From: Paludibacteraceae bacterium
GTDB lineage: Bacteria; Bacteroidota; Bacteroidia; Bacteroidales; Paludibacteraceae
Reading direction: 5' to 3'
Length of the DNA stretch: 42,245 nucleotides
Assembly: GCA_017439235.1 (NCBI GenBank)
Contig: JAFSJN010000006.1
Coordinates: 1 to 42,245 of the forward strand
The notes beneath the pieces are model-generated. The model was not told the DNA's origin. It saw only the letters and a list, made by a program, of their open reading frames with translations, and searched no databases. This document shows, piece by piece, positions 14,061 to 42,245 of the stretch (within the stretch, counting starts at the first letter, position 1; each line of letters starts with the position of its first letter). The position numbers were made by a program, and so were the translations under genes.

Positions 14061-14088
14061 AATTCTTAATTTTTAATTTTTCATTTCT
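14061..14088. repeat. Heptamer tandem repeat, 4 units
   Basis: Units aattctt, aattttt, aattttt, catttct. The repeat supplies the stop codon and the last residues (EMKN) of the adaptor protein gene. Confidence 0.8.
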
Positions 14089-15158
14089 TTCACCCTCTCA
14101 TTCCCTCTCACGCTGTCGCCTTCTTGTAATCCGGAGCAAATCTCTATATATATCCCGTCACTCATACCCGTCGTTACTGCGCGCCGGGTGTCGTGTATGG
14201 TCACATAACTGCTGTCCCCTTCTATATGTACCGCCGCCTCGTCCAACGCCAACACCTGTTCACGACGCTGTAAGACTATCTCCGCATTGGCGCTGTAGCC
14301 GGCTCGGACATGTATGCTGTCCGGGATGCGAGCAGCACCTTTGATTTCAAACATCATGGCTCCGTTCGACTCGGTCCCCTTAGGCGAGATATATTCGAGG
14401 GTCGCATCAAAACGGCGGTCATTAATAGCACCAATGATGAGTTGCATCGGCATACCTTCGCGCAAGCGACCCACTTCCGTCTCATCCATCTTACCGACAA
14501 AAAGCATATCCGACATATCGGCTACAGTCGCTATCGTCGTACCGTCGTTGAAGTTATTGGCATTGATGACCGAGTTTCCTACTTTTACCGGTATATCCAA
14601 TATTGTGCCGGCTATGGTGGAGCGGACTATTGTATTACCTGCATCTTTTGACGAAGCAACTACACCCTCGCGTACAATAAGATACGCATCGCGTGCGGCC
14701 ACCAACTCCTCGCGGGCTTTGATGTACTCCAGATGCGACTTGTCATAGTCCTCGCGGGCGATCACCTGTTTGGCAAATAGGGTAGAGTCACGCCGGAAGA
14801 TATCTTGTATATTGTTCAGGTTGTACTCCGCCAATCGTACGCGCGATTCGGCACTGCTCAGTTGTTGCATGTCGGGCACGACTTTGATTTTGGCGATAGG
14901 CTCATTGACTTTCACTTTCTCGCCTGTCTGTTTGTACAGCTCGGCTATGATACCGCTTATCTGCGCTTTGATGGCTACCTCATCGCGTGGTTCCACTTTG
15001 CCGGTGACTACGGTGCGCTTCTCTATATCTCGACGCTTCACGGTCAGTGTCTCGTACTCTACAGGCTTTGGCTGTGCACGTTTCCATAAAAAGAAGAAGG
15101 TTGCTACAACGGCTGCTATCAATAGGCAGACCATCATCCATTTCATTACTCGTTTCAT
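14073..15158 (-). CDS. Periplasmic adaptor (HlyD/MacA-like membrane fusion protein)
   Basis: 361 aa. N-terminal membrane anchor at about 6-25, a barrel-sandwich half motif VTGKVEPRDEVAIKAQISGIIAELYKQTGEKVK, a coiled-coil hairpin (about 100-160), the second lipoyl half near 180-200, and a beta-barrel region. It would bridge the inner-membrane permeases and the TolC channel. Last gene of the efflux operon, 33 nt after the second permease, with a heptamer repeat in that gap and another at its 3' end. Substrate unknown. Confidence 0.9.
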   Translation of the reverse strand: MKRVMKWMMVCLLIAAVVATFFFLWKRAQPKPVEYETLTVKRRDIEKRTVVTGKVEPRDEVAIKAQISGIIAELYKQTGEKVKVNEPIAKIKVVPDMQQLSSAESRVRLAEYNLNNIQDIFRRDSTLFAKQVIAREDYDKSHLEYIKAREELVAARDAYLIVREGVVASSKDAGNTIVRSTIAGTILDIPVKVGNSVINANNFNDGTTIATVADMSDMLFVGKMDETEVGRLREGMPMQLIIGAINDRRFDATLEYISPKGTESNGAMMFEIKGAARIPDSIHVRAGYSANAEIVLQRREQVLALDEAAVHIEGDSSYVTIHDTRRAVTTGMSDGIYIEICSGLQEGDSVRGNERVKEMKN

Positions 15159-15166
15159 ATTATTGT

Positions 15167-15194
15167 AAATTTTGAAATCTTAAATCTAAAATTA
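15167..15194. repeat. Heptamer tandem repeat, 4 units
   Basis: Units aaatttt, gaaatct, taaatct, aaaatta fill the gap between the permease and adaptor genes and include the permease stop codon (15194-15192). Confidence 0.75.
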
Positions 15195-17662: not shown

Positions 17663-18321
17663 TCTATAATGCCGTCTTTGATGCGGATGATGCGGTTAGT
17701 AGCTTCTGCTACCGACTGCTCGTGGGTGACAATGATGGTGGTGATGCCTTCGCTGTTCAGTTGCTTAAATATATCCATCACCTCGATAGTCGTCTTGCTG
17801 TCCAAAGCTCCTGTCGGCTCATCGGCCAATAGTATCTGTGGTTTGGAGACGATGGCGCGGGCGATGGCTACGCGTTGACGCTGACCACCGGACATCTCGT
17901 TGGGCAGGTGCTCTGCCCAAGCAGCTAAGCCCATTCGCTCCAACTGCGCCATAGCCAAGCGATTGCGTTCACGACGCCCCACACCTTTGTAGTACAGCGG
18001 CAGAGCGACATTCTCCAAGGCCGTCTTGAAGTTCAATAGGTTAAACGATTGGAAGACAAAGCCAATCAACTCATTGCGCAGACGAGCCGCCTGTGTCTCA
18101 CTCAGGTTGGTGATGAGCCGATTAGCAAGATGGTACTCGCCTTGGTCGTAGTTGTCTAATATACCCAAGATATTGAGCAGCGTACTCTTGCCGCTACCCG
18201 AGGCACCCATTATAGTCACCAACTCGCCGTCGGCTATGTCCAGGTTGATGCCCTTGAGTACATGCAACTCGTTGGGTTGACCGATATTATACGATTTATG
18301 TAAATTGCGTAGCGTAATCAT
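17659..18321 (-). CDS. MacB/LolD-type ABC ATPase
   Basis: 220 aa. Walker A GASGSGKSTLLNILG, Q-loop FVFQSFNLL, signature MSGGQRQRVAIARAI, Walker B ILLADEPTGALD, H-loop IIVTHEQ. Typical of the MacB/LolD/FtsE group. Its ATG overlaps the TolC-like stop (ATGA), and its own stop overlaps the first permease. It energises tripartite efflux together with the two permeases, the adaptor and the outer-membrane channel of this operon. Confidence 0.93.
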   Translation of the reverse strand: MITLRNLHKSYNIGQPNELHVLKGINLDIADGELVTIMGASGSGKSTLLNILGILDNYDQGEYHLANRLITNLSETQAARLRNELIGFVFQSFNLLNFKTALENVALPLYYKGVGRRERNRLAMAQLERMGLAAWAEHLPNEMSGGQRQRVAIARAIVSKPQILLADEPTGALDSKTTIEVMDIFKQLNSEGITTIIVTHEQSVAEATNRIIRIKDGIIE

Positions 18322-19634: not shown

Positions 19635-19656
19635 CAGTTTGACTTTTTTTACGCGA

Positions 19657-19688
19657 CAAAGGTACACTTTTTTTGCGATATACGCAAA
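19657..19688 (-). promoter_or_regulatory. Promoter of the efflux operon
   Basis: On the minus strand TTTG (19688-19685), a 20-nt spacer and TACCTTTG (19664-19657), a perfect consensus. It sits 23 nt before the TolC-like start and settles that start. Confidence 0.85.
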
Positions 19689-19698
19689 TATTTTGTAC

Positions 19699-19890: not shown

Positions 19891-19914
19891 AATCCCTATT
19901 AATTTTAAATTTTT

Positions 19915-19956
19915 AATCTCTAAACACTAAACACTAAACTCTAAACTCTAATTTCT
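19915..19956. repeat. Heptamer tandem repeat, 6 units
   Basis: Units aatctct, aaacact, aaacact, aaactct, aaactct, aatttct. The repeat contains the stop codon (19943-19941) and the last residues (IRV) of the HTH regulator. Confidence 0.9.
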
Positions 19957-20800: not shown

Positions 20801-20816
20801 TTTTACTTTCCGACTG

Positions 20817-20824
20817 CAAAAGTA
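20817..20824 (-). promoter_or_regulatory. -7 element of the PH/HTH operon
   Basis: TACTTTTG on the minus strand fits TAnnTTTG. No TTTG is found 19-21 nt upstream, so the promoter may need an activator. It is back to back with the argS promoter. Confidence 0.45.
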
Positions 20825-20927: not shown

Positions 20928-20933
20928 CACTCG

Positions 20934-21066: not shown

Positions 21067-21102
21067 AATTTTTAATTTGTTAATTTTTAATTGTTAATTC
21101 AC
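21067..21102. repeat. Heptamer-type repeat before argS
   Basis: Units aattttt, aatttgt, aattttt, aattgtt, aattcac, with one extra base after the second. It forms the last 40 nt of the argS leader, next to a start codon without Shine-Dalgarno. Confidence 0.7.
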
Positions 21103-21107: not shown

Positions 21108-22892
21108 ATGTTGTCTCTCGAACAAACCCTCACCACCTACACCCGTCAGGCCGTCCAACAGCTCTATGCTTTCGACGCTGCCGATAACCTCATTCAGCTC
21201 CAAAAGACCCGTCCCGAATTCGAGGGACACATCACCCTCGTTGTCTTCCCCTTCGTTAAACTCGCACGCAAAGCACCTGCACAGGTCGCAGCCGAGATAG
21301 GCGAATGGCTCGTTAATAACTCTCAGGGACTCGTAGCTAAATACAACGCCGTACAGGGCTTCCTTAATCTCGTCATAGATGACGCTTTTTGGATTAACCA
21401 ACTCCAAGCCATCCATGCCGACGACAACTACGGACAGCAGCCCGATCGTCATCAGTTGATGATGGTCGAGTACTCGTCACCCAACACCAATAAGCCGCTC
21501 CACCTCGGACACGTACGCAATAACCTCCTCGGTTATTCGATTGCTAAGATCCAAGAAACTAACGGCTGGCGCGTGGTCAAGACCAATATAGTTAACGACC
21601 GCGGCATACATATCTGCAAATCCATGCTCGCGTGGCTCAAGTTCGGTAACGGAGAGACACCCGAATCGAGCGGCAAGAAAGGCGATCACCTCATCGGCGA
21701 CTACTACGTCCGCTTCGATAAGGAATACAAAGCCCAGATAGCTCAACTCATGGCTGCGGGCAAGGACGAAGAGACCGCCAAACGCGAAGCACCTCTCATG
21801 CTTGAAGCGCAGGAGATGCTCCGTAAATGGGAGGCTAACGACCCGGAGGTGCGCGCACTATGGGCTAAGATGAACAGTTGGGTATATGCCGGATTTGATG
21901 AGACGTATAAGCGCCTCGGTGTGGCGTTCGATAAGATTTATTACGAGTCGAATACCTACCTTGAAGGCAAGTCTGAAGTGGAACGCGGACTCGCTGCCGG
22001 ACTCTTCTATCGCCGCGAAGACGGTTCGGTGTGGGCTGACCTCACTAAGGACGGACTCGACGAAAAACTCCTCTTGCGCTCTGATGGTACATCTGTCTAT
22101 ATGACGCAGGATATAGGTACCGCCAAACTGCGTTTCCAAGACTATCCCATTGATAAGATGGTCTATGTCGTTGGCAATGAACAGGAATACCACTTTCAGG
22201 TGCTCTCTATCCTCCTTGACCGTCTTGGATTCCCCTTCGGCAAAGAACTGGTGCACTTCTCGTACGGTATGGTCGAACTGCCCAACGGCAAGATGAAATC
22301 CCGCGAAGGAACCGTTGTGGATGCCGACGACCTAATGGATAAAATGGTGCAGGATGCCAAAGAGATTAGCAAAGATAAGGTAAATACGTTGCAAGGTATC
22401 ACCGAGGACGAAGCGAACGAGATTGCTCGCAAGGTCGGCCTCGGCGCTCTCAAATATTTCATCCTCAAGGTTGACCCGCGTAAGAATATGCTCTTCAATC
22501 CTGCCGAGTCCATTGACTTCAACGGTAATACCGGACCCTTCATTCAGTACACCTACGCCCGCATTCAAAGCGTCCTGCGTAAAGCCGATAAAGAATCCCT
22601 AATCACTAATCGGGAATCGAAAATCGAGGCCAAGGAGTTGAACTTGATCCAACGACTGACTGAGTATCCCTCTGCCGTTCGTCAGGCGGGTACCGACTTC
22701 TCGCCGGCAGTCATCTGCAACTATGTCTATGCTCTCGCTTCTGACTTCAACTCGTTCTATCACGACTTCTCCATCCTCAACGAAGAAGACCCCGCTAAGC
22801 GAGGTCTCCGTCTCATGCTCTGCGCATCGGTGGCTAAGGTCATCCGCTCTGCTATGAGTCTGCTCGGTATAGAAGTGCCCGAACGGATGTAA
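21108..22892 (+). CDS. argS: Arginyl-tRNA synthetase
   Basis: 594 aa, full length. It charges tRNA-Arg with arginine. N-terminal additional domain 1-115; class I HIGH motif as HLGH at 132-135 within SSPNTNKPLHLGHVRNN; KMSK counterpart KMKSREG; C-terminal DALR-type anticodon domain ending MSLLGIEVPERM. Residues 496-507 (around SLITNRESKIEA), at the border between catalytic and anticodon domains, are encoded by five heptamer repeat units and look like an insertion. No SD site. It ends exactly where the convergent pepP begins. Confidence 0.97.
   Translation: MLSLEQTLTTYTRQAVQQLYAFDAADNLIQLQKTRPEFEGHITLVVFPFVKLARKAPAQVAAEIGEWLVNNSQGLVAKYNAVQGFLNLVIDDAFWINQLQAIHADDNYGQQPDRHQLMMVEYSSPNTNKPLHLGHVRNNLLGYSIAKIQETNGWRVVKTNIVNDRGIHICKSMLAWLKFGNGETPESSGKKGDHLIGDYYVRFDKEYKAQIAQLMAAGKDEETAKREAPLMLEAQEMLRKWEANDPEVRALWAKMNSWVYAGFDETYKRLGVAFDKIYYESNTYLEGKSEVERGLAAGLFYRREDGSVWADLTKDGLDEKLLLRSDGTSVYMTQDIGTAKLRFQDYPIDKMVYVVGNEQEYHFQVLSILLDRLGFPFGKELVHFSYGMVELPNGKMKSREGTVVDADDLMDKMVQDAKEISKDKVNTLQGITEDEANEIARKVGLGALKYFILKVDPRKNMLFNPAESIDFNGNTGPFIQYTYARIQSVLRKADKESLITNRESKIEAKELNLIQRLTEYPSAVRQAGTDFSPAVICNYVYALASDFNSFYHDFSILNEEDPAKRGLRLMLCASVAKVIRSAMSLLGIEVPERM
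22594..22628. repeat. Heptamer tandem repeat inside argS, 5 units
   Basis: Units aatccct, aatcact, aatcggg, aatcgaa, aatcgag, in frame within argS. The unit family is the same as that between argC and argD. Confidence 0.85.
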
Positions 22893-24710
22893 TCAGATAG
22901 CGCGGCATTTAGCTCTTAGATACGCTTTCTCGTCCTTGCTCAGCAGGGGCGAGATTTCGTTATATACCCATGCGTGATAGTTGTTCACCCAGGCTTTCTC
23001 CGTCTCGGTCATCATCGCCGTATCCATCAGTCGCGTATCATACGGGCAGAGCGTCAGCGTCTCAAACTCATAATACTGTTCTCCCGTACTGCGCTGCGGC
23101 TGACTGTCGGCAAAGGCTGTACGCGTCACCATCAGGTTCTCTGTTCGGATTCCGTATTCGTTGGTGCGGTAGATACCCGGTTCGTCGGAGAAGATATTAC
23201 CCTCTTTGATGGGATTTGTATTGTTGTCCGTGCGGATGTTTGCCGGTCCTTCGTGGCAACCCATGAAGTGACCTACACCGTGTCCTGTTCCGTGACCGTA
23301 ATGTATGCCTTCTTGCCACATATACTGACGGGCTAATATATCCAACTGATTGCCACGCGTACCTTTCGGGAAGCGTGCACAGGCTAAAGCGATGTGTCCT
23401 TTGAGTACTAAGGTAAAGTCATGCTTCACCTCTTCGGGTATAGCTTTTTCGTCGCCCACCCACACCGTGCGGGTGATATCCGTCGTGCCGTCTAAGTATT
23501 GTCCTCCGCTGTCTAATAGTAGCACTCCGTTACCTTCTATCTTGGCGCAGGCCTCCGGCGTAGCGTGGTAGTGGACGATAGCACCGTTACTTTTCCATCC
23601 GGCTATGGTGCAGAAACTCTCGTCGGTGAAGTTTTCACCCTGTGCACGGAAGGCGTGTAACTGCTCGGCTATGCTGATCTCCGTCTGCGGCGTCTTCAGC
23701 GCCTCAGTCTCGAGCCAGCGGAAGAAACGCACCAACGCAACGGCATCGCGACGCATAGCTATGCGCTCGCCCGCTATCTCGGTGGCGTTCTTGACCGACA
23801 TCATCACCTGTATGGGCGACGGCGTGGCATTCACCTTCGTGACCGTCTCCGGCAACGCCTCATATAAGGCCTCGTTGACGCGGTTTCCGTCTAATAATAC
23901 CCGCGTAGCGTGAATGCCCTGCAGGTACTCGCGTACGGCAGAATAAGGACGCAGGTCAATGTTTTGTGTCGACAACTCTTCGGCTACTTGATTCGACACC
24001 TTGTTTGCATCGATAAATAGCGTGCAGCGGTCTTTCTCTACAACGCAGTAGGCTATCACGCACGGCGTATATTCTACATCTGTTCCGCGCACATTCAGCA
24101 GCCATCCTATCTCGTCCAATTCGGCTATGATGGCAGCCTCGGCACCGCGTTCGGCTAAGGCCTCGCGTACGCGCAATAATTTATCGGTCACCGTCTCGCC
24201 GGCATAACGATCGTCGTATATATATAGCGGATTCATCGGCATCTCCGGTCGCCCTTCGATCCATATAGGTGCTATCAGGTCGGCCGAACGCAGTTTGATG
24301 CCACTCTCGCCCAATTCCTTGCGCAACGTAGCATAGTCGTTCACGCTGTACATCTCCGGATTAACTGCCACTACAGGAGAACCGGAAACTTGAAATTTGA
24401 AATTTGAAATAATCCACTGGCTGATACTCGGGCAGTCTACATCGCTCTCGCGCATCAGTTCTATCGTTGACCCTGCCAGCTCGGCTTCGGCTTGCAGGTA
24501 GTAACGCGAGTCGGTCCACAGTAAAGCCTTTTCGGCGGTCACTACTGCTGTACCTGTCTCGCCTAAGAATCCCGTCAACCACGACATTTCTGCCCAGTAA
24601 GGGGCCATATACTCCGATGCGTGCGGGTCGTTCCCCGGTACGATATACGCATCTATTCCCTGTTCCTTCATTAGCCTCCGTAAGGCTTCCAATCTCTCTC
24701 TTACTTCCAT
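22893..24710 (-). CDS. Aminopeptidase P family (Xaa-Pro aminopeptidase), long form
   Basis: 605 aa with creatinase-like N-terminal domains (two) and a C-terminal M24 pita-bread domain, like the three-domain aminopeptidase P. Metal ligands can be placed in LLLDSGGQYLDGTTDITRT (two Asp), GHGTGHGVGH (His) and the DEPGIY and RTENLM regions (two Glu). It releases an N-terminal residue that precedes proline, in the cytoplasm. Residues about 100-109 (SNFKFQVSG) come from a heptamer repeat. Convergent with argS with no intergenic base. Confidence 0.93.
   Translation of the reverse strand: MEVRERLEALRRLMKEQGIDAYIVPGNDPHASEYMAPYWAEMSWLTGFLGETGTAVVTAEKALLWTDSRYYLQAEAELAGSTIELMRESDVDCPSISQWIISNFKFQVSGSPVVAVNPEMYSVNDYATLRKELGESGIKLRSADLIAPIWIEGRPEMPMNPLYIYDDRYAGETVTDKLLRVREALAERGAEAAIIAELDEIGWLLNVRGTDVEYTPCVIAYCVVEKDRCTLFIDANKVSNQVAEELSTQNIDLRPYSAVREYLQGIHATRVLLDGNRVNEALYEALPETVTKVNATPSPIQVMMSVKNATEIAGERIAMRRDAVALVRFFRWLETEALKTPQTEISIAEQLHAFRAQGENFTDESFCTIAGWKSNGAIVHYHATPEACAKIEGNGVLLLDSGGQYLDGTTDITRTVWVGDEKAIPEEVKHDFTLVLKGHIALACARFPKGTRGNQLDILARQYMWQEGIHYGHGTGHGVGHFMGCHEGPANIRTDNNTNPIKEGNIFSDEPGIYRTNEYGIRTENLMVTRTAFADSQPQRSTGEQYYEFETLTLCPYDTRLMDTAMMTETEKAWVNNYHAWVYNEISPLLSKDEKAYLRAKCRAI
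24385..24412. repeat. Heptamer tandem repeat inside the aminopeptidase P gene, 4 units
   Basis: Units gaaactt, gaaattt, gaaattt, gaaataa on the plus strand, translated on the minus strand between two N-terminal-domain segments. Confidence 0.85.
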
Positions 24711-24738
24711 ACTCTCTAAACACTAAACTCTAACCTTT
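24711..24738. repeat. Heptamer tandem repeat between pepP and nadC, 4 units
   Basis: Units actctct, aaacact, aaactct, aaccttt. The nadC stop codon (24732-24730) and its last residues lie within it. Confidence 0.8.
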
Positions 24739-25617
24739 CACCGCCTTAAACGACATATCCAAACTCTTATAACTATGCGTCAGCGCGCCTACCGATACGA
24801 AGTCTACGCCGCATACAGCATAGTCGCGCAGCGTGTCTATGGTGATGCCGCCGCTGCTCTCTATCTCTATATGACGAGCCAGACCCGTTTCATTTTTAAT
24901 TTTTAATTCGTAATTTCTAATGATATCCACCGCCTCTTTTGTCTTCTCGGGAGTGAAGTTATCCAGCATGATGCGGTCGGGGATATTGGTGGCGAGGGCT
25001 TCGTTTATCTCGTCGAAATTACGCACTTCTATCTCTATCTTCAGGTCCTTACCTTTTGCTTTGCAGTAGTCGCGTGCTCGTGTCAGGGCGGCAGTGATGC
25101 CTCCTGCAAAGTCCACGTGGTTATCTTTCAGCAAAATCATGTCGAATAGTCCTATTCGGTGATTCATGCCTCCGCCTATCTTCACGGCCTCTTTCTCTAA
25201 GTAGCGCAGTCCGGGTGTGGTCTTACGGGTGTCGAGCACGTGGCAACCGGTGTCGGCTATCCTACTCTGATACCTATGTGCTGTCGTCGCTACGCCCGAC
25301 ATACGTTGCATAATGTTGAGCATCGTGCGTTCTATCTGCAGCAGACTCAGTTCTTTGCCGTACACTTTGAATGCCACATCGCCGGGCTTAACCTCTGCTC
25401 CGTCCTCTAAGAACTGTTCTATGCGGCATTCCGGGTCAAAGTAATGGATTATCTCTTTCGCCACTTCTACGCCGGCGAGTATGCCGGTATCTTTGATGAT
25501 GAGTTGCTGACACCCCATCTGCGTAGGCGGTATACAACTCAGCGATGTGTGATCGCCATCGCGGATATCTTCCTCAAGCCATAAGGCAATCAACTTACGT
25601 AATTCCTGCTTGTCCAT
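24730..25617 (-). CDS. nadC: Nicotinate-nucleotide pyrophosphorylase (carboxylating)
   Basis: 295 aa. Converts quinolinate and PRPP to nicotinate mononucleotide in de novo NAD synthesis. Motifs: EDIRDGDHTS near the N-terminus, the substrate loop DTRKTTPGLRYLEKEAVKIGGG, HRIGLFDMILLKDNH, EIEVRNFDE and the ESSGGI barrel end. A segment near 231-243 (IIRNYELKIKNE) between LDNFTPEKTKEAVD and HIEIESSGG is encoded by heptamer repeats. It has its own promoter. nadA and nadB are not in the window. Confidence 0.96.
   Translation of the reverse strand: MDKQELRKLIALWLEEDIRDGDHTSLSCIPPTQMGCQQLIIKDTGILAGVEVAKEIIHYFDPECRIEQFLEDGAEVKPGDVAFKVYGKELSLLQIERTMLNIMQRMSGVATTAHRYQSRIADTGCHVLDTRKTTPGLRYLEKEAVKIGGGMNHRIGLFDMILLKDNHVDFAGGITAALTRARDYCKAKGKDLKIEIEVRNFDEINEALATNIPDRIMLDNFTPEKTKEAVDIIRNYELKIKNETGLARHIEIESSGGITIDTLRDYAVCGVDFVSVGALTHSYKSLDMSFKAVKG
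24891..24925. repeat. Heptamer tandem repeat inside nadC, 5 units
   Basis: Units cattttt, aattttt, aattcgt, aatttct, aatgata, in frame within nadC just before the conserved ESSGGI strand. Confidence 0.8.
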
Positions 25618-30000: not shown

Positions 30001-30298
30001 GGAAAACGATATCCCCTGCCGCCGCGTGTTGTGGCCGTCGGAGTCGTCGGAAACTTGGGAACTGAAAGACCTGCCCGGTGCTCTGGAAATGATTCATCGA
30101 CGAGAAGTAGACTTAGTTATCAATATACCTAAGAACTTCTCCGAAGGCGAGCTGACCAACGGATACCGTATCCGCCGCGCCGCCATCGATTGCAATATAC
30201 CCCTTTATACCAATGCCCGCCTGGCAACAGCTTTCATCCGCGCCCTATGCGCCTTTGCCGATACACCACTGCCGCTCAAAGGATGGGACGAATATTAA
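27053..30298 (+). CDS. carB: Carbamoyl-phosphate synthase large subunit
   Basis: 1081 aa, full length. Two homologous ATP-grasp halves (first starts VLLLGSGALKIGQAGEFDYSGSQALKA; second VIVLGSGAYRIGSSVEFDWCSV near residue 563) with an oligomerisation region between, and a C-terminal MGS-like regulatory domain (LLSTGDPIEKAEM...LYATGGTYKYL). It makes carbamoyl phosphate, used by ArgF' two genes after argC. 23 nt precede the next start. Confidence 0.97.
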   Translation: MRHDIHTVLLLGSGALKIGQAGEFDYSGSQALKAMREEGIRTVLINPNIATVQTSEGVADKVYFLPVTPDTVERVIEREHPDGILLSFGGQTALNCGVELYRKGILQRYGVRVLGTPVETIMDTEDRELFVRRLDEIDVLTIRSYPASSIDEAKQAAEDLGYPLIVRAAYALGGLGSGFVDNDEELTEVCEKAFAFAPQVLVEKSLRGWKEIEYEVMRDRYDNCITVCNMENFDPLGIHTGESIVVAPSQTLSNSDFHFLRELAIRIVRHLGIVGECNVQFAYDPDSTDYRVIEVNARLSRSSALASKATGYPLAFVAAKLGLGYGLFELKNSVTKTTPAFFEPALDYVVCKIPRWDLNKFQHVSRKIGSSMKSVGEVMSIGRTFEEAMQKGLRMIGQGAVGFAGNKPLPVEDIRQALSEPTDTRIFVVAQALELGMSVDEIYSLTRIDRWFLNKLRGIVETDQALCAYNSIESLPVDLLRLAKRQGFSDERIQQALYKGQGEALANELKVRAYRQQAGIVPYVKQIDTLAAEFPAQTNYLYLTYNGSKSDLDEMPAAKDQGAVIVLGSGAYRIGSSVEFDWCSVMAMQEIRAHGYRGVMINYNPETVSTDYDQCDRLYFDELTLERVLDICELEHPTGVVVSVGGQIPNNLALPLHRLGIRILGTSAENIDRAEDRHKFSSIVDALGIDQPEWAEVTSMADLDAFVARVGFPILVRPSYVLSGAAMNVCHTRANLERCLSMAAEVSQEHPVVVSRFITRCKEIEFDAVADHGQLLASAISEHIEFAGVHSGDATIVFPAQRLYVETVRRIKRIAARIAAELDITGPFNIQFLAKENQIKVIECNLRASRSFPFVSKVLKINLIRLATQAMLGMKPAPLQEKAFDLDYVGVKSAQFSFARLENADPMLRVDMCSTGEVGCLGNSVDEALMKSILSVGQGISGKRVLLSTGDPIEKAEMLEACRLLARNGYELYATGGTYKYLVENDIPCRRVLWPSESSETWELKDLPGALEMIHRREVDLVINIPKNFSEGELTNGYRIRRAAIDCNIPLYTNARLATAFIRALCAFADTPLPLKGWDEY

Positions 30299-30321
30299 AC
30301 CGAATAATAGAACACAACAAT

Positions 30322-32046
30322 ATGGAACAATTTACTATCGAAGTAGCAAACGAGAAGCACATCCCCTATATTCCGGAGATTCTGCAGACTATCGAAGATG
30401 CCGCAAAGGTGCGCGGCACAGGTATTGCCAAGCGTAAACCCGAATATGTGGCAGAAAAAATGCGCGAAGGCAAGGCTATCATCGCCTTGTGCGGCGATAA
30501 GTTTGCCGGATTCAGTTATATCGAGAGTTGGGGCCATGAAGAGTTTGTGGCCAACTCAGGACTGATCGTCAAACCTGAGTACCGTAACAAGGGATTGGCC
30601 AAACAGATTAAGAAACATATCTTTGACCTCTCGCGCAAGCGTTTCCCCAACTCCAAGATCTTCAGCCTTACCACAGGTGCGGCCGTGATGAAGATGAATA
30701 CCGAGTTAGGGTATAAGCCCGTCACCTTTGCCGACCTGACCTCCGATCCTGCCTTCTGGAAAGGGTGCGAGTCGTGCGTCAACTTTGATGTGCTGTCCCG
30801 TAATAACTACTCCCGCTGCCTGTGCACTGGCCTGCTATATGAGCCCCGCAAGAAAAGAGTGGTAGTAGCTTTCTCGGGCGGATTGGACACCTCGTTCACC
30901 GTTATGTACTTGGCTAAGGAGAAAGGCTACGAAGTATATGCCGCGTGTGCCGATACGGGAGGGTTTAGCCCCGAACAACTCAAGCAGAACGAGGAGAATG
31001 CCTATAAACTCGGCGCCAAGAAGTATGTCACCTTGGACGTGAAACAGGAGTACTACGATAAGTCGCTGCGTTACATGATTTACGGCAACGTACTGCGCAA
31101 CGGCACGTATCCTATCTCCGTATCATCGGAGCGTATCTTCCAGGCTCTGGCTATCGCCCGCTATGCCCGCGAAGTAGAAGCCGACGCTATCGCTCACGGT
31201 TCGACAGGTGCCGGTAACGACCAGGTGCGCTTCGATATGACATTCTTAGTAGCGGCTCCCGGTATGGAGATTATCACTCTTACGCGTGATATGGCTCTCA
31301 CCCGTCAGCAGGAAGTAGACTACCTGAACGAACATGGTTTCAAGGCCGACTTCGCCAAACTCAAATACTCGTACAACGTAGGCCTATGGGGCACGAGTAT
31401 ATGTGGCGGTGAGATATTGGATTCCAAACAAGGTCTGCCCGAAGAGGCTTACCTCAAACAGGTCACCAAGACCGGCACCGAACAGATAGCCTTAGAGTTC
31501 CGTGAGGGACAACTGGTAGGCGTGAACGGCGAGAAATTCACTGACGGCGTCAAGGCTATCCAACGCGTAGAAGCTATCGCCGCACCTTACGGCGTAGGTC
31601 GCGATATGCACGTAGGTGATACCATCATCGGTATCAAAGGTCGTGTAGGCTTTGAGGCTGCCGCGCCTATGCTGATCATCGCGGCACACCGTTTCTTAGA
31701 GAAATTCACCCTCAGTAAATGGCAACAGTATTGGAAAGACCAAGTTGCCAACTGGTACGGCATGTTCCTGCACGAGAGTCAGTATATGGAGCCCGTCATG
31801 CGCGACATAGAAGCTATGCTCCTCAGTTCGCAGCAGCATGTTAATGGTATAGTAACTATGCAGTTGCGTCCGTACAGCTTCTCCACAGTAGGCGTAGATA
31901 GTCCTGATGATTTGGTGAAGACCAAACTGGGTGAGTATGGCGAGATGCAGAAAGGATGGACCAGCGAAGAGGCCAAAGGCTTCATCAAGGTGACCTCCAC
32001 ACCGCTGCGAGTATATTATGCTAACCATACAGACGAAGCATTATGA
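30322..32046 (+). CDS. argG: Fused GNAT N-acyltransferase and argininosuccinate synthase
   Basis: 574 aa from ATG 30322. Residues 1 to about 175 are a GNAT domain (VKPEYRNKGLAKQIKK acyl-CoA loop at 83-98, then TTGAAVMKMNTELGYKPV and a Cys cluster CESCVN...CLC). From about 178 the protein is ArgG: ATP site AFSGGLDTSF at 183-192, ISVSSERIFQALAI, GSTGAGNDQVRFD, GRDMHVGDTIIGIKGRVGFEAAAP. In Bacteroides these are, from memory, two adjacent genes. Here no stop or separate ATG lies at the join, though GTG in RVVVAF could be an internal start. The GNAT part probably acylates glutamate, the first arginine step (inference). Overlaps argC (ATGA). Confidence 0.93.
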   Translation: MEQFTIEVANEKHIPYIPEILQTIEDAAKVRGTGIAKRKPEYVAEKMREGKAIIALCGDKFAGFSYIESWGHEEFVANSGLIVKPEYRNKGLAKQIKKHIFDLSRKRFPNSKIFSLTTGAAVMKMNTELGYKPVTFADLTSDPAFWKGCESCVNFDVLSRNNYSRCLCTGLLYEPRKKRVVVAFSGGLDTSFTVMYLAKEKGYEVYAACADTGGFSPEQLKQNEENAYKLGAKKYVTLDVKQEYYDKSLRYMIYGNVLRNGTYPISVSSERIFQALAIARYAREVEADAIAHGSTGAGNDQVRFDMTFLVAAPGMEIITLTRDMALTRQQEVDYLNEHGFKADFAKLKYSYNVGLWGTSICGGEILDSKQGLPEEAYLKQVTKTGTEQIALEFREGQLVGVNGEKFTDGVKAIQRVEAIAAPYGVGRDMHVGDTIIGIKGRVGFEAAAPMLIIAAHRFLEKFTLSKWQQYWKDQVANWYGMFLHESQYMEPVMRDIEAMLLSSQQHVNGIVTMQLRPYSFSTVGVDSPDDLVKTKLGEYGEMQKGWTSEEAKGFIKVTSTPLRVYYANHTDEAL

Positions 32047-32984
32047 TTAAGGTCGGAATAATAGGAGCAGCAGGATACACCGCCGGCGAGTTGATACGTT
32101 TGCTGGTGCATCATCCTCAGGCGCAGATTGTCTTTGCGCAGTCGTCCAGTCAGGCCGGACAGCCGGTCGCTGCCGTGCACGAAGGGCTGACAGGCGATAC
32201 CGACTTATGCTTTGTGGCTGAAGCGGACTTGGAGGCTGTCGATGTGCTTTTCCTCTGTGCAGGGCACGGCAAGAGTAGCGCCTTTTGGGCTGCCCACACG
32301 CGTCCGGAGCACCTGCGTGTCATCGACTTGGCACAAGACTACCGCGATGAACACGATGGCTATATATACGGTCTGCCCGAATGGCAACGCGATCGCATAG
32401 CATCAGCTACCCTGATAGCCAATCCCGGCTGCTTTGCTACAGCTATCCAGTTGGCACTCCTTCCCCTCGTGGCTTCCGGCAGCCTGCACGGCGAAGCGCA
32501 TGTAACGGCTATCACCGGCTCGACAGGCGCAGGACAACAGCCGTCCGCTACTACCCATTTTTCGTGGCGTAACAACAACTTGTCGGTATATAAACCCTTC
32601 ACCCATCAGCACTTGCTGGAGATACAACGCAATCTGCAGATCCCCGTCACTTTTATACCTATCCGTGGCGACTTTGCCCGCGGCATACTGGCTACGGCGG
32701 TAGTAGAGTGGGATGGGACACAAGAGCAAGCCGAAGCGCTGTACAAGGAATACTATCGTACTGCCGCTTTCACTTACGTTAGCGACACAGCGGTAGATAT
32801 GAAAGAGGTTGTCAATACCAATAAATGCCTGCTGCACGTAGATGTGCACGAAGGACACCTGCTGATCACCTCCGTCATCGACAACTTGCTCAAAGGAGCT
32901 TCCGGACAAGCGGTGCAGAATATGAATCTGATGTTCTCGCTACCCGAGACAACAGGACTGCAACTGAAAGCCTCAGCTTTTTAA
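32043..32984 (+). CDS. argC: N-acyl-gamma-glutamyl-phosphate reductase
   Basis: 313 aa. NADP-binding start IKVGIIGAAGYTAGELIRLL and catalytic Cys130 in NPGCFATA. The C-terminal half has GASGQAVQNMNLMF. It reduces acylglutamyl phosphate, made by ArgB, to the semialdehyde. The short form (about 310-350 aa) is normal. The stop is the first triplet of a heptamer array that fills the gap before argD. Confidence 0.96.
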   Translation: MIKVGIIGAAGYTAGELIRLLVHHPQAQIVFAQSSSQAGQPVAAVHEGLTGDTDLCFVAEADLEAVDVLFLCAGHGKSSAFWAAHTRPEHLRVIDLAQDYRDEHDGYIYGLPEWQRDRIASATLIANPGCFATAIQLALLPLVASGSLHGEAHVTAITGSTGAGQQPSATTHFSWRNNNLSVYKPFTHQHLLEIQRNLQIPVTFIPIRGDFARGILATAVVEWDGTQEQAEALYKEYYRTAAFTYVSDTAVDMKEVVNTNKCLLHVDVHEGHLLITSVIDNLLKGASGQAVQNMNLMFSLPETTGLQLKASAF

Positions 32985-33023
32985 TCCCTAATCGCTAATC
33001 ACTAATCACTAATCGATAATCCA
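32982..33023. repeat. Heptamer tandem repeat between argC and argD, 6 units
   Basis: Units taatccc, taatcgc, taatcac, taatcac, taatcga, taatcca. Each contains TAA, so the array carries stops in every frame. It is the longest run of the taatc family in the window. Confidence 0.9.
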
Positions 33024-36980: not shown

Positions 36981-38314
36981 AACTCTGGGACAAAGGCTAT
37001 ACTATCGACCAAGCTGTAGAGACCTTTACCGTAGGTCGTGACCGCGAACTTGACTTGTTCCTGGCGCCGTACGATGTGCTGGGCACTATAGCGCATACGA
37101 TGATGCTGCAGCAGGTCGGTCTACTCTCGCGCGAAGACTTAGATGCTCTCGTGCCCGCGTTGCGCGAAATATATAAGGACTGCCTGAATGGCTCTTTTGT
37201 CATCGAAGAGGATATAGAAGATGTCCATTCTCAAGTAGAGTTGCTCCTCACGCGCCGGTTGGGTGACGTAGGTAAGAAAGTGCATACCGGCCGTTCACGT
37301 AATGACCAGGTATTGGTGGACCTCAAACTCTTCACCCGTGATGCTATCGAACGAACGGTAGGCAAGATACAGACCCTCTTTACTGCCTTGCAACGCCGTT
37401 CGGAACAGACCCGCGACATTCTTATGCCCGGTTATACGCACCTGCAAGTGGCTATGCCTTCGTCCTTCGGGTTGTGGTTCGGCGCTTATGCCGAAGCACT
37501 CACCGACGATATACGCCAGTTGGCGGCGGCTTACGACATAGCTAATCTCAATCCATTAGGTTCCGCAGCAGGTTATGGTTCATCGGCACCGCTCAATCGT
37601 ACAATGACCACGCAATTGTTGGGCTTTGCGGACCTCAACTATAATGTCGTCTATGCTCAGATGACGCGTGGCAAGTTGGAGCGCGTTGTGGCAGCCGCCT
37701 ATGCTTCCGTGGCAGAGACGCTCTCGCGCCTGGCTATGGACTGCTGTCTGTTCAACTCCCAGAACTTCGGTTTCGTACATCTTCCGGATGCACTGACGAC
37801 AGGGTCCAGTATAATGCCGCATAAGAAAAACCCGGACGTCTTTGAACTGCTCCGCGCACGGTGTAATCGCTTGACGGCCTTGCCCGATCAGATACGTCAC
37901 ATGACGACCAATCTGCCGGTAGGTTATTTCCGCGATTTGCAACTGCTCAAAGAACTCTACCTGCCGCTCTTTGCCGAGTTGGACGAGTGCGTAGATATGA
38001 TGACCTACGCTATCGAAAATATGCAAGTGGAGCACGATTTGATGGACAAGGCTATCTATCAACCGGCCTTCTCTGTGGAGCGGGTCAATGAACTGGTAGC
38101 GGACGGAGTGCCTTTCCGTGATGCCTATCGTCAGGTGGCCGATGAGATAACTAAAGGTACCTTCCGGTTCGAGGGCACACTGCATCACACCCACGAAGGC
38201 TCCATAGGTAATCTGTGTAACGAGGCGATAAAGAAGCGTATGCAGCAACTTGTAGACGCTTTTCCTTTCACCTCCGTCCATCAAGCTATCGACACACTAA
38301 TCTCTCAACACTAA
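36977..38314 (+). CDS. argH: Argininosuccinate lyase
   Basis: 445 aa, fumarase/aspartase superfamily. HSQVELLLTRRLGDVGKKVHTGRSRNDQV and the signature GSSIMPHKKNPDVFELLR are present. Splits argininosuccinate to arginine and fumarate, the last step. Its final residues ISQH and stop come from a heptamer array. Confidence 0.96.
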   Translation: MKLWDKGYTIDQAVETFTVGRDRELDLFLAPYDVLGTIAHTMMLQQVGLLSREDLDALVPALREIYKDCLNGSFVIEEDIEDVHSQVELLLTRRLGDVGKKVHTGRSRNDQVLVDLKLFTRDAIERTVGKIQTLFTALQRRSEQTRDILMPGYTHLQVAMPSSFGLWFGAYAEALTDDIRQLAAAYDIANLNPLGSAAGYGSSAPLNRTMTTQLLGFADLNYNVVYAQMTRGKLERVVAAAYASVAETLSRLAMDCCLFNSQNFGFVHLPDALTTGSSIMPHKKNPDVFELLRARCNRLTALPDQIRHMTTNLPVGYFRDLQLLKELYLPLFAELDECVDMMTYAIENMQVEHDLMDKAIYQPAFSVERVNELVADGVPFRDAYRQVADEITKGTFRFEGTLHHTHEGSIGNLCNEAIKKRMQQLVDAFPFTSVHQAIDTLISQH

Positions 38315-38333
38315 ACACTAAACTCTAAACTCT
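38299..38333. repeat. Heptamer tandem repeat between argH and lysC, 5 units
   Basis: Units aatctct, caacact, aaacact, aaactct, aaactct. Contains the argH stop (38312-38314) and fills most of the gap. Confidence 0.9.
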
Positions 38334-38339
38334 CATCGC

Positions 38340-39620
38340 ATGCTCATCATTAAATTCGGCGGCACCAGTGTAGGTTCAGCCGCTCGTATGAAAAACGTTG
38401 CTCAACTGATCAAGGCTCCCCATAAGGACGTCATCGTGGTCCTATCGGCTATGTCCGGCACGACAAATGCGCTCCTGCAGTTAGCGGATTATCTGCGCAT
38501 AGGCAATACGAAAGCGGCTAATGAATTGCTCGATACGCTGGAGCAAAAGTACCGCACCGAGTGTGCCGATTTGGGTATCGACTTTGTCGTCGAGTCGTTC
38601 TTTATGGACATGCGCCGCCGGTGTGCAGAATCCTATACGCCGCAAACGGAGAAGGATATCGTAGCTAACGGCGAACTGATGTCGACGACGATGATGAGCA
38701 TCTATATGCAGGTGCCCCTGCTACCGTCACTCGATTATATGCGTATTGATGCAGACGGCGAACCGGATATGTCGACTACATTGTCGTTGCTTAAACCTAT
38801 GATAGAGAAGATGCATACGCCCTGTATGATTACTCAAGGCTTTATTTGCCGCAATCACACCGGTGCTATTGACAACCTCAAGCGTGGCGGGTCCGACTAT
38901 TCGGCGTCTATCATAGGCGGTCTGCTGGGGGCGGAAGAGATACAGATTTGGACCGACATTGACGGAATGCACAACAACGATCCCCGTTACGTGCCCAATA
39001 CACGTCCTGTACCGCAACTCTCCTTTGCCGAGGCGGCCGAGTTAGCCTACTTTGGTGCGAAGATTCTGCACCCGACCTGTATCTTGCCGGCTAAACTGCA
39101 TAATGTCCCTGTGCGCCTGCTCAATACGATGGATCCTGCAGCTCCGGGTACCCTCATCAATAATGACTATAAGAAAGGACGCATCGAAGCTATCGCCGCA
39201 AAAGATGGTATAGCTGCTATTCGTGTGCATTCTGACAGAATGTTGCTGGCCTATGGTTTCCTCTCGCGTATATTTGCTATCTTCGAGAAATACAAGACGC
39301 CTATCGACCTGATTACCACCTCCGAGGTGGCGGTGTCGATGTCGGTGGATAATTTGACACACATAGGCGAGATACTGCCTGAACTCAAGGCTTTAGGTAC
39401 TGTCTCACTGGAGACCAATCTCAGTATTATCTCTGTGGTGGGCGATTTGCAAAGCAATAACCTCGGTTTTGAGGCCGTGGTGGTGAATGCCTTGCGTGAT
39501 ATCCCTGTTCGCATGATTAGTTATGGCGGTTCGGATCACAATATCTCCATTCTCGTTCGAACGGAAGACAAAGTGCGCGCCCTCCAATCCCTCAGCAATG
39601 CCATCTTCTCTAATCTCTAA
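38340..39620 (+). CDS. lysC: Aspartate kinase
   Basis: 426 aa, monofunctional. KFGGTSVGSAARM at the start, GELMSTTMMS, GFICRNHTGAIDNLKRGGSDYSAS and WTDIDGMHNNDPRYV are kinase motifs. Two ACT domains occupy the C-terminus from about 285, which normally give feedback control. Starts the aspartate branch toward diaminopimelate and lysine. The last two residues and stop (NL) lie in a heptamer repeat. Confidence 0.94.
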   Translation: MLIIKFGGTSVGSAARMKNVAQLIKAPHKDVIVVLSAMSGTTNALLQLADYLRIGNTKAANELLDTLEQKYRTECADLGIDFVVESFFMDMRRRCAESYTPQTEKDIVANGELMSTTMMSIYMQVPLLPSLDYMRIDADGEPDMSTTLSLLKPMIEKMHTPCMITQGFICRNHTGAIDNLKRGGSDYSASIIGGLLGAEEIQIWTDIDGMHNNDPRYVPNTRPVPQLSFAEAAELAYFGAKILHPTCILPAKLHNVPVRLLNTMDPAAPGTLINNDYKKGRIEAIAAKDGIAAIRVHSDRMLLAYGFLSRIFAIFEKYKTPIDLITTSEVAVSMSVDNLTHIGEILPELKALGTVSLETNLSIISVVGDLQSNNLGFEAVVVNALRDIPVRMISYGGSDHNISILVRTEDKVRALQSLSNAIFSNL

Positions 39621-39639
39621 ACTCTAAACTCTCAACAAT
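39612..39639. repeat. Heptamer tandem repeat between lysC and lysA, 4 units
   Basis: Units aatctct, aaactct, aaactct, caacaat, running from the last lysC codon into the lysA start codon. Confidence 0.85.
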
Positions 39640-40810
39640 GATCACCGGTTCTTTTCCTATAGAAGCTTTATCCGCGTACGAGACGCCATTTTACTATTAC
39701 GATATGTCGGTGCTCCGTTCTACGCTTCGTGAGGTGACCTCGCAGATGCAGATATTTGACAATGCCGTTGTGCATTATGCCGTTAAGGCCTGTGCCGCTC
39801 CTGAGATTCTTCGCGAGATAGCTAAGGCCGGTTTAGGGGCAGACTGCGTTTCGGGAGGAGAGATAGAAGCGGCTATTGCGGCCGGTATACCGGCTTCGCG
39901 TATCGTCTTTGCCGGGGTGGCTAAGACCGATAAGGAGATACGTTATGCCTTGCAGCAAGGTATTTTCTGCTTCAATGTAGAGTCGCAAGCCGAGGTTGAA
40001 GTGATTGACCAACTGGCTGCCGAGGCAGGTGTCGTAGCTTCGGTGTGCTTGCGTATCAATCCTGAAGTGGATGCCCATACGCATGCTAAGATTACTACGG
40101 GCATGGCGGAGAATAAGTTCGGCATCCGTATGCAGGACTTGGAAGAGGCTGTGAGAGATTGTACACGCCGCCAACACATTCGTTTCTTAGGACTACATTG
40201 CCACATTGGTTCGCAGATTACCGACATACAGGTCTTTACTGTTTTGGCCGAACGTCTCAACACCCTGGTGGCACGCGTAGAAGCTCTCGGCGTACCGGTG
40301 GAGCATATCAATGTAGGGGGAGGATTGGGTATACTCTATGAACATCCTAACCACTTCCCGATACCTGATTTCCAATCCTATTTTGCTACCTTTGCCCGTT
40401 CGCTGCAGCGTAGAGTGGGGCAGACAGTGCATTTTGAACTCGGACGCTCTATTGTAGCGCAGTGTGGTAATCTGATGACGCGCTGCCTGTATGTCAAACA
40501 GGGCACACAAAAACGCTTTGCTATCGTGGATGCCGGCATGACCGATTTGATACGCCCTGCCCTGTACGGAGCTTTTCATCGTGTGGAGAACCTCTCCTGT
40601 CCTGATGCGCCGGAACAGGTGTACGATATTGTAGGTCCTATCTGCGAGTCATCGGATGTCTTCGTCGAAGGCTATTCGATAGCGCAGGTGCATAGGGGCG
40701 ACCTGCTCGTGATGCGTTCTGCCGGAGCGTATGGCGAAGTGATGGCCAGCCGCTACAACCTCCGCCGCCTACCGGGACATATTACCTCGGATGATATCTT
40801 AACCGCCTAA
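39638..40810 (+). CDS. lysA: Diaminopimelate decarboxylase
   Basis: 390 aa, fold III PLP decarboxylase. PLP lysine K50 in HYAVKACAAPEIL, GADCVSGGEIEAAI, GLHCHIGSQI, HINVGGGLGILYE, ELGRSIVAQCG and the active-site PICESSDVF. It makes lysine from meso-diaminopimelate and belongs with lysC. dapA, dapB and the other steps are absent from the window. Its stop overlaps the next start (TAATGATG). Confidence 0.94.
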   Translation: MITGSFPIEALSAYETPFYYYDMSVLRSTLREVTSQMQIFDNAVVHYAVKACAAPEILREIAKAGLGADCVSGGEIEAAIAAGIPASRIVFAGVAKTDKEIRYALQQGIFCFNVESQAEVEVIDQLAAEAGVVASVCLRINPEVDAHTHAKITTGMAENKFGIRMQDLEEAVRDCTRRQHIRFLGLHCHIGSQITDIQVFTVLAERLNTLVARVEALGVPVEHINVGGGLGILYEHPNHFPIPDFQSYFATFARSLQRRVGQTVHFELGRSIVAQCGNLMTRCLYVKQGTQKRFAIVDAGMTDLIRPALYGAFHRVENLSCPDAPEQVYDIVGPICESSDVFVEGYSIAQVHRGDLLVMRSAGAYGEVMASRYNLRRLPGHITSDDILTA

Positions 40811-42012
40811 TGATGAGACGCGTCCTAATCATAGTAACCTTAATCTTCGCCAGCCTGTCGGCGTGGCCCTGTACGTCGGCTATTATCAGCGGGCGATGGA
40901 CGGCGGACGGCAGACCGCTGATGTTCAAGCATCGCGATACCGACTGCTTGGACAATCGTTTGCAGTATCTCCGCGGGCCTCGATTTGATATGGTGGGATT
41001 GGTTAACGCTACCGATACCGGCAGTTGTGTATGGGCGGGAGCGAATACAGCCGGCCTGTGCATCATGAATACGGCCTCCTATTGCTTGCGTACAGAGCAG
41101 GTCACCTGTGACTATGAACGCGAGGGGTGGCTGATGTATCTTGCCTTAGGGCATTGTGCTTCACTCACGGATTTCGAACACCTCTTGGACAGCCTCTTGC
41201 GGCCGGATAGCATAGGACATGTAGCGCCCTTATGTGTCGAGGCCAACTTCGGCCTTATCGATGCACAGGGTGGGGCGGCCTATTATGAGGTCAGTGACTA
41301 TAGGTGGACGAAGTTCGATGTCGCTTCTTCTCAGCCCGGATACCGTATACAAACCAACTGGTCGGAGTCCGGACGAGCCCAAGACGCGCAAGGCCTCGAA
41401 CGCCAACAGACCGCAGAGGCTATCTGGGCAGCCAATGAAGGATTGTTATGGACGCCCGCCGACTTAGTCAATCGTTTCTCTCGTTCGTATCGTCATGCAT
41501 TACTGAATGTCGACTACACGGCGGCTAATGCGCCGGAGTTTGTGCCCGACCAGGATTTTATTCCTCGCCGCATCACTTCGGCAGTCATCGTGTTCCAAGG
41601 GGTGTCGCCTGACGAGAATCCTGCTCATACGCTCTTGTGGACCACCTTGGGCTATCCGGCTTGTGCTGTGACGGTACCGGTGACGGTCAGTCCTAATATC
41701 CCCTCTTTCCTGTCCGATGCCGGCGATACGCATGCTCCAATGTGCGACAGGGCTATGCAACTCAAACGCCGTTACTGCTTCCCGTTGACTTTATCCAACG
41801 GACAACGCTACTTGCACCTATCGGCCGTCCTGCGCGGCTCGGATTCGGTGCCCGCCTTAATGCCTCAAATTATCCGCATGGATAGTGCCATCGTGCAGGA
41901 GTTTGCTCCGCTGATGGAAAACTATCGTCGCGGAGAGAGGGATACCGCCTTTTATGAACAATACCAAGTGCTGACCGCCTCATGGTGGCAGCGCTACACA
42001 AATAATACCTGA
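40810..42012 (+). CDS. Exported C45-like Ntn hydrolase
   Basis: 400 aa. Hydrophobic leader 5-18 followed by Cys21 in WPCTSAIISG, the arrangement of the C45 / acyl-CoA:6-aminopenicillanate acyltransferase-like group, where the Cys becomes the N-terminal nucleophile after cleavage. KHRDTDCLDNR, SCVWAGANTAGLCIMNTA and EANFGLIDAQGGAAYYEVS match the family pattern. Probably cleaves an amide bond in the periplasm; substrate unknown. Translationally coupled to lysA (one-base overlap) and followed 2 nt later by an M20 peptidase. Confidence 0.75.
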   Translation: MMRRVLIIVTLIFASLSAWPCTSAIISGRWTADGRPLMFKHRDTDCLDNRLQYLRGPRFDMVGLVNATDTGSCVWAGANTAGLCIMNTASYCLRTEQVTCDYEREGWLMYLALGHCASLTDFEHLLDSLLRPDSIGHVAPLCVEANFGLIDAQGGAAYYEVSDYRWTKFDVASSQPGYRIQTNWSESGRAQDAQGLERQQTAEAIWAANEGLLWTPADLVNRFSRSYRHALLNVDYTAANAPEFVPDQDFIPRRITSAVIVFQGVSPDENPAHTLLWTTLGYPACAVTVPVTVSPNIPSFLSDAGDTHAPMCDRAMQLKRRYCFPLTLSNGQRYLHLSAVLRGSDSVPALMPQIIRMDSAIVQEFAPLMENYRRGERDTAFYEQYQVLTASWWQRYTNNT

Positions 42013-42014
42013 CC

Positions 42015-42245
42015 ATGAACATCAGCGAATACATCTCTACTCATCGCAATCGTTTTATGGACGAGTGGGCGTCCCTCATTCGTATCCCGTCGGTGAGTTG
42101 TCAACCTGAGCATCACTCCGACATGTTGCGTTGTGCCGAGCGTTGGCGGCAACTCCTGCTGGAGGCCGGCTGCCAAAAGGCCGAAGTCCTTCCCTCTGCA
42201 GGCAACCCCTTCGTGTACGGAGAATTTCAAATCTCAAATCTCAAA
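42015..42245 (+). CDS. M20-family dipeptidase, 5' part only
   Basis: 77 codons open at the window end. MNISEYISTHRNRFMDEWASLIRIPSVSCQPEH is the usual start of M20 (CNDP-like) dipeptidases. The last residues GEFQISNLK come from heptamer repeat units at 42223-42245. The metal ligands lie beyond the window, so the call rests on the N-terminus. Confidence 0.75.
   Translation, partial: MNISEYISTHRNRFMDEWASLIRIPSVSCQPEHHSDMLRCAERWRQLLLEAGCQKAEVLPSAGNPFVYGEFQISNLK
42223..42245. repeat. Heptamer tandem repeat inside the M20 gene, cut by window end
   Basis: Units aatttca, aatctca, aatctca and the start of a fourth, in frame. Confidence 0.75.

Follow-up and report, generated by a model that had tools for sequence, protein, structure and literature searches.

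The stretch analysed here (the window, 42,245 nucleotides in full) is contig C23 of a Paludibacteraceae metagenome-assembled genome (MAG; 1.486 Mb in 23 contigs, 77% complete) from a gut bacterium of the order Bacteroidales, and it carries tandem arrays of 7-bp units both at gene junctions and within argS, pepP and nadC. In duplicated loci of this organism and its congeners such arrays differ in length by whole units, within a genome exact units and mosaics of units are shared among arrays, and at fixed coding sites different units are found. The arrays are probably heptameric long simple sequence repeats in active and mostly neutral turnover, through whole-unit length change and copying within the genome. 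The scanned collection of named genomes yielded 22 related loci, every one labelled Paludibacteraceae or Bacteroidales, with a PepP identity of 56-72%.

Arrays of the window

Arrays were called in the window from 18 comparisons at a lag of 7 positions, of which at least 14 (lenient threshold) or at least 15 (strict threshold) had to be equal. Pfam names were checked for ten window proteins; argC, argD and the TolC- and MacB-like genes were named by eye. The arrays are the following:

14058..14086, + strand: units TTTAATT/TTTTTAA, covering the 3' end of an HlyD-family gene (- strand) and the gap before an MlaE permease gene
15166..15192, + strand: unit TAAATCT, flanked by the HlyD-family gene and by a permease gene that looks FtsX/MacB-like by eye, both on the - strand
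19914..19956, + strand: units CTAAACA/CTAAACT, outside open reading frames (ORFs) of at least 150 amino acids, the size considered
21067..21099, + strand: units AATTTTT/AATTTGT, ending 8 bases upstream of the argS start codon
22594..22619, + strand: short array, unit CTAATCA, within argS
24385..24410, - strand: unit AAATTTC (coding strand), within pepP, residues 101-109
24711..24738, + strand: units CTAAACA/CTAAACT, at the junction of the nadC stop and the pepP start (both genes on the - strand), providing the nadC stop TAG
24888..24921, - strand: unit AATTAAA (coding strand), within nadC, about residue 243
32982..33021, + strand: unit TAATCAC, between argC and argD, its first TAA being the argC stop codon
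38297..38333, + strand: units CTAAACA/CTAAACT, encoding the final ArgH residues LISQH and the stop, then the argH-lysC junction
39606..39636, + strand: unit CTAAACT, providing the lysC stop codon and filling the lysC-lysA junction
42222..42245, + strand: unit AAATCTC, at the extreme end of the contig
1252: weak array, unit CTTTTTG, called at the lenient threshold
40891: weak array, called at the lenient threshold

The TAA-bearing arrays provide the stop codons of argC, argH, lysC, nadC and, by reading, of the HlyD-family gene, whose TAA falls inside the array at 14058..14086. As 7 is not divisible by 3, three TAA-bearing units stop every frame, and the short array of argS shows the selective filter against in-frame stops: TAA stands at 22600 in frame 1 and at 22607 in frame 2, and the in-frame third place, 22614, reads GAA. 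An array at about residue 243 was present in one of the 22 NadC orthologs examined. One 27-bp mosaic, AACACTAAACACTAAACTCTAAACTCT, occurs in both the array at 19914 and that at 38302, with the unit variants in identical order, and a 24-26 bp mosaic of the array at 14058..14086 recurs at a minimum of four further places in the sampled genome. The last array runs into the contig end, so that the length seen is a lower bound, and as an exact 24-mer it had zero matches in 197 loci. A promoter-like stretch (GCAAAGATAC with TTTGCATATA, by eye) abuts AAAAATT arrays at 14020-14060 of the window and at several other loci of the same genome.

Period 7 in the genome and its relatives

A sequence-only reading of the window had listed twelve places with a 7-bp period, and all of them were recovered at the lenient threshold, which rendered 14 places (these twelve, 1252 and 40891). 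Order-3 Markov sequences averaged 0.22 such places, and 50 sequences preserving the composition of each 200-bp block averaged 0.24, with a maximum of 2. At the strict threshold there were eight places in the window and none in the 50 block-shuffled sequences, and periods 4 to 15 other than 7 gave zero places in the window. Tandem Repeats Finder, run on the window with a score of at least 30, found ten of the twelve, missing 22594 and 24711. That reading had also noticed no array in the first 14 kb, which holds for strong arrays but not for the weak CTTTTTG array at 1252; P is 0.008 for an empty first 14 kb if twelve arrays are placed uniformly, and some clustering of the window arrays is likely.

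The same reading had proposed a genome-wide count of period-7 repeats against shuffled sequence as a check, with a lack of excess over other periods as a refuting outcome; this outcome did not occur. Twenty stretches of the own genome (G000), taken from contig starts regardless of arrays (353,100 bp), contain 26 arrays of period 7, and one shuffled copy of each stretch contains none; among periods 3 to 30, none besides 7 exceeds five arrays (period 5, one; period 6, four; period 8, four; period 11, five). The 32 congener stretches sampled around pepP (571,463 bp) contain 76 arrays of period 7, 27 of period 8, 21 of period 11, 16 of period 15, one of period 5 and two of period 6; several of the 15-bp arrays look by eye like 7+8, and 8 of the 32 loci have no period-7 array at all. 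Expressed per 100 kb, there are 7.4 period-7 arrays in the own genome, 12.7 and 14.4 in the array-rich congeners G002 and G014, respectively, and 1.1 in 20 stretches from other Bacteroidales families (272,622 bp with 3 arrays). On these densities we rejected the idea that period 7 is commonplace throughout the order. The bias to seven is thus real and stronger in the genus than in the order, yet not absolute. The arrays qualify as long simple sequence repeats in that they are tandem units of the 1-11 nt class in runs longer than expected, with length 7 above other lengths.

A query of three GAAATTT units, tolerating at most 2 mismatches, had at least one match in 53 of 295 genomes of the class, the own genome included, and its reversed control, also a heptamer, was common in some of those 53. 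Period 11 is the third commonest in the congeners; tandem arrays of 11-bp units, several reading AATCACnnnnn, occur for instance in the loci L030 (7208-7306), L079 (17081-17181) and L061 (18468-18524), and one also adjoins a heptamer array in a duplicated element of G002.

Sharing of units within genomes

Among 229 arrays with an exact doublet, comprising 125 different units, the exact unit is shared by 225 of 3532 pairs within genomes and by 172 of 22574 pairs between genomes, that is, about 8-fold more often, and a permutation of genome labels reached the observed value in none of 2000 trials. In the contiguous samples of G002 and G014, which are free of array-based selection, 52 of 1128 and 38 of 780 pairs share their unit, versus 0 of 1920 pairs between these two genomes. 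Units with shuffled letters, their composition kept, rendered at most 66 of 3393 sharing pairs in 300 trials, versus 215 observed. Irregular mosaics of at least 21 bp, with one or more irregular units, are shared by 84 of 6060 pairs within genomes versus 23 of 28656 between genomes (about 17-fold).

These figures bear on local replication slippage as the only process, whereby an array would grow in place from a chance duplicate and seven would be favoured by the contact length of the polymerase. Such a process fits the whole-unit length changes described below and the intergenic enrichment: over three long contig stretches, the C1 stretch of the own genome, the window and nine congener stretches, all taken together, 106 of 207 arrays lie outside ORFs, and a simple ORF call covers 92% of the bases, with about 8% non-coding. 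It also fits the lead of heptamers in unrelated bacteria, as given in the passages of PMC4679880 and PMC4692102 on this point. The excess of exact units and of mosaics within genomes, beyond base composition, speaks against it; since units are shared far more within than between genomes, local slippage alone is insufficient, and we regard it as a rather unlikely explanation of the whole.

The sequence-only reading had proposed slippage or templated addition. Whole-unit length change bears out part of this proposal, with the restriction on local slippage just given. Templated or enzymatic addition, in which a reverse transcriptase would use a 7-nt template or Ku would join staggered breaks after filling, would yield a constant period with changing sequence by virtue of its fixed 7-nt step, but 125 units in 229 arrays do not match a single template. 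The domain RVT_1 was found in 21 of 61 genomes and was not found in the array-rich G014, G035, G004 and G034, each at least 96% complete, so that reverse-transcriptase templating is not needed; a Ku profile search gave no match in 61 genomes, with its control detected in Bacillus subtilis, which makes end joining of staggered breaks unlikely. Altogether, addition of this kind is very improbable.

Pairs of arrays with the same unit tend to lie on one chromosomal strand: 89 of 108 do so over nine sources, a value reached in none of 5000 random flips (by contig source, 39/52 in G002, 36/38 in G014, and, in the own genome, 2/2 in C14, 4/4 in the window and 3/6 in C1). In a set of 110 pairs, 39 have neighbouring genes on opposite strands; 25 of these follow the chromosome and 14 follow the gene, so that an orientation dictated only by genes fits worse and was rejected. 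In G253, which belongs to another family, the strand agrees in only 16 of 39 same-unit pairs, and a strand bias as a general rule was also rejected, being strong in G002 and G014 and absent in G253. For two congeners it looks as if copying followed a single chromosomal strand; given G253, we keep this bias as a conditional clue that carries no conclusion.

Different units at the same site

The 51 PepP orthologs contain 32 coding arrays, spread over 16 genes; 30 of these arrays fall in five narrow clusters, drawn post hoc, that span 35 of 605 residues. In the loop near residue 109, a period-7 array is present in 13 of the 51 orthologs, every unit being different (by eye); as to the other 38, one has period 8, two are just below the threshold, three have other or mixed repeats and 32 have no repeat (by eye). 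The segment measures 14-23 residues in the 13 array-bearing orthologs, versus 13-16 in 29 and 17-20 in three of the 32 repeat-free ones. Three sister pairs, taken from a tree built with other columns (L076/L069, L072/L071 and L079/L073), have arrays at this site with units that differ in each pair. The unit CAGGAGT, on the other hand, is common to L073 and L079 at residue 292. In a structural model of the window PepP (mean predicted local distance difference test score, pLDDT, 78.8; 14 sequences), the array site is placed where helix 96-104 ends and in the loop leading to strand 113-116, and the clusters near residues 133, 191, 292 and 342 are likewise predicted at or beside loops. The three PepP arrays of G002 all have units that recur elsewhere on that contig.

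Identical arrays at all loci of diverged relatives, an outcome that would have spoken against a generating process, were not found, though single arrays are conserved: one 30-bp stretch is identical between L010 and L030, and other sites of these two loci show a different unit at one place or an array in only one of them.

The change of unit at a fixed site bears also on the idea that the arrays are binding sites of a protein or an RNA-binding factor that requires a 7-bp spacing. A model for it would be the parS site of pSM19035, where 7-10 consecutive WATCACW heptads at partition-gene promoters are bound by the ribbon-helix-helix protein Omega, as the pertinent passage of PMC9499535 describes. 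The AATCACT of the window array at 32982-33021 matches WATCACW as written there, some arrays lie just upstream of gene starts (e.g., 21067), and translational control was suggested by MacGregor for TAACTGA arrays in the cited part of PMC4679880. Set against this are the units that differ between species at one site, the arrays inside pepP, argS and nadC, and the fact that no constant motif was seen. The fit of AATCACT is probably a coincidence. A search for Omega_Repress had no match in 37 genomes and is uninformative, as its control had no match anywhere either. Binding sites are thus an improbable explanation.

Length changes, duplications and contig ends

Two contigs of the own genome, C3 and C4, share flanks that are 92-100% identical, and two pairs of arrays between these flanks differ by 7 and 70 bp. 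In a duplicated element of G002, at 97 and 302 kb of one contig, flanks are 93-95% identical and the arrays differ by 63 bp. Among orthologous arrays with the same unit, the difference is zero in L010/L030 at 12007 and in L073/L079 at PepP residue 292, and 21 bp in L013/L071 in argS. Loss of mismatch repair was rejected as a cause, since MutS_I is present in 56 of 61 genomes, including the array-rich G002, G014, G004, G034 and G035; it was not found in the own MAG, whose 77% completeness makes that observation weak.

The duplications raise the idea that arrays could be copied chiefly through being carried along by larger dispersed elements or by promoter regions. The C3/C4 duplication, the element at 97 and 302 kb and a 75-bp element of G014 with four copies are consistent with it, as are several AAAAATT arrays of the own genome with common promoter-like flanks; since such arrays abut the same promoter-like stretch, part of the flank sharing is promoter sequence. 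On the other hand, only 5 of 55 arrays in G002 and 13 of 64 in G014 have a flank matching that of another, non-adjoining array, and the arrays inside pepP, argS and nadC are flanked by gene sequence. Carriage as passengers is therefore unlikely to be the main route.

The element of G014 just mentioned is a dispersed sequence of about 75 bp, observed at about 293.7-298.6 kb of contig C18 (L192), that has two small palindromes and contains GGCGAAA units. GGCGAAA is a leading array unit on that contig, and the element could be a source or a product of arrays.

Arrays are also frequent at contig ends. Of the 46 ends in the own genome, 6 have an array within the last 60 bases, 0.14 being expected (P = 6e-9), and such an excess would follow if arrays were long, variable or had k-mers in common. 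The contig pairs C7/C8, C20/C21 and C20/C22 start or end with identical 60 bases, so that longer dispersed repeats also break this assembly. The active generating process that the sequence-only reading had inferred is supported by the whole-unit length differences in duplicated loci, the site-fixed unit differences in sister species and the contig breaks in arrays.

Relation to known heptameric repeats

The short tandemly repeated repetitive (STRR) sequences of cyanobacteria are heptameric, tandem and dispersed, with several units. The likeness to them that had been noted for the window holds for unit length, dispersal, intergenic enrichment and the presence of several related units; the host, however, belongs to the Bacteroidales and thus to another phylum, so that the likeness is an analogy only, the label being valid only in the sense of working like STRR, and membership is not claimed.

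Heptamers are over-represented versus other lengths and chance, and sporadically so across phyla, according to Mrazek and others (2007), as cited in PMC4679880 and PMC4692102, which also give their proposal that contact with the polymerase accounts for seven. The unit of 7 nt is over-represented here too; compared with the heptameric repeats as these papers summarise them, the present ones comprise 125 units in 229 arrays and coding sites that recur with different units. TAACTGA direct repeats have been described in Beggiatoaceae, Cyanobacteria and five Bacteroidetes including Paludibacter (MacGregor 2015, PMC4679880); in the portions of that paper considered here they are mostly intergenic in most species, are mixed with other heptamers in some, and differ mostly in 7-nt steps between two Cyanothece strains. 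The two systems are alike in these portions in having 7-bp direct repeats, largely intergenic, with 7-nt length steps, and differ in that one unit dominates in the main TAACTGA genome and many units occur here. TAACTGA doublets were absent from the window (up to 2 mismatches) and, as exact doublets, from 197 loci.

In Xanthomonas and Nostoc, GGGAATC and GGGGA(C/T)T repeats were described by Rehm and others (2015, PMC4692102); the relevant sections report heptamers between the same genes in two related Xanthomonas species, with varying length and sequence, and no tie to one class of gene function, features in which the present arrays are alike, and mention three tandem heptanucleotides in Calothrix. 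Those repeats, as presented there, are G-rich and quadruplex-capable, whereas the present ones have AT-rich or mixed units and many coding arrays; the Nostoc GGGGAYT doublet had no match in the window with up to 2 mismatches. Bacillus tandem repeats of constant size and variable sequence, with several families per genome (Subirana and Messeguer 2021, PMC8161180, in the part concerned), resemble ours in keeping length while changing sequence, but with units of 52 or 20-21 nt. A survey of short tandem repeats over the tree of life gives a high repeat density for Bacteroidota, heptamers being unnamed in its relevant passage (PMC12699852).

Heptamers as the commonest repeats, the polymerase contact, TAACTGA in Bacteroidetes and the site-conserved, variable heptamers of Xanthomonas are already in print in the passages cited (PMC4679880, PMC4692102). 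Among the best-ranked matches in the open-access literature we found no report of heptamers in Paludibacteraceae, of one unit taking the place of another at a conserved coding site or of units shared within a genome. The PepP loop arrays with different units across species, the sharing of units and mosaics within genomes and the differences of 7, 63 and 70 bp in duplicates go beyond the papers considered here.

Other features of the window

A 43-bp unit is repeated 3.7 times without mismatch at 2602-2761, adjoining an acyl-CoA synthetase-like gene (named by eye). ArgG, at 30190-32046, has about 220 extra N-terminal residues that are acetyltransferase-like by eye; this extension has no Pfam name at 1e-5, the ArgG match beginning at residue 223.

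Mechanism and significance

In the reading that we favour, heptameric long simple sequence repeats under turnover, slippage or unequal recombination would make arrays longer or shorter, and pieces several units long would be copied from an array to other places in its genome by short-homology template switching or gene conversion. Such copying would seed new arrays and overwrite older ones, and would preserve period 7, the 8- and 15-bp (7+8) arrays being by-products of single-base indels. Selection would filter the arrays, leaving them enriched between genes and, inside genes, in loops and in stop-free form; no function would be required of them. One may go further and see in heptamer arrays a minimal mobile sequence, pieces of which are copied and overwrite older arrays, the unit following the genome and the site and period outlasting species splits; we hold this to be possible, albeit doubtful.

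Several observations weigh against the favoured reading. The AAATTTC array of the window matches at least 25 places outside pepP in 11 congeners, which is a lower bound because five candidates were scored per genome; exclusive genome dialects were rejected on this ground, and 'dialect' can only mean a difference in frequency. Sharing in the own genome (125 of 1485 pairs) is inflated by the choice of stretches, as its sample includes eight picked on contigs with TAAACTC matches, G002 and G014 being unaffected. The L010/L030 arrays at 5316 differ by 15 bp (7+8), which is no multiple of 7. Some same-unit arrays share flanks and have spread with a larger duplication or beside promoter-like sequence. 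The nearest relatives of this genome are only about 68% identical in pepP DNA and the closest pairs of array-rich congeners 79-83%, distances at which single steps of copying blur and similar arrays may have been born repeatedly. Finally, copying alone leaves the prevalence of seven in unrelated phyla unexplained.

The arrays account for unusual peptides found in housekeeping enzymes (in PepP, for example, ELRITNYELR and RSQESGV) as well as some breaks in metagenome assemblies. Copying tied to one strand, if true, would point to replication forks. The preference of bacteria for 7-bp units has been an old question since the first genome surveys. In this genus sister species have different units at fixed sites under an unchanged period, which separates the cause of the length from the cause of the sequence; single genomes mix the two, and here both can be tested.

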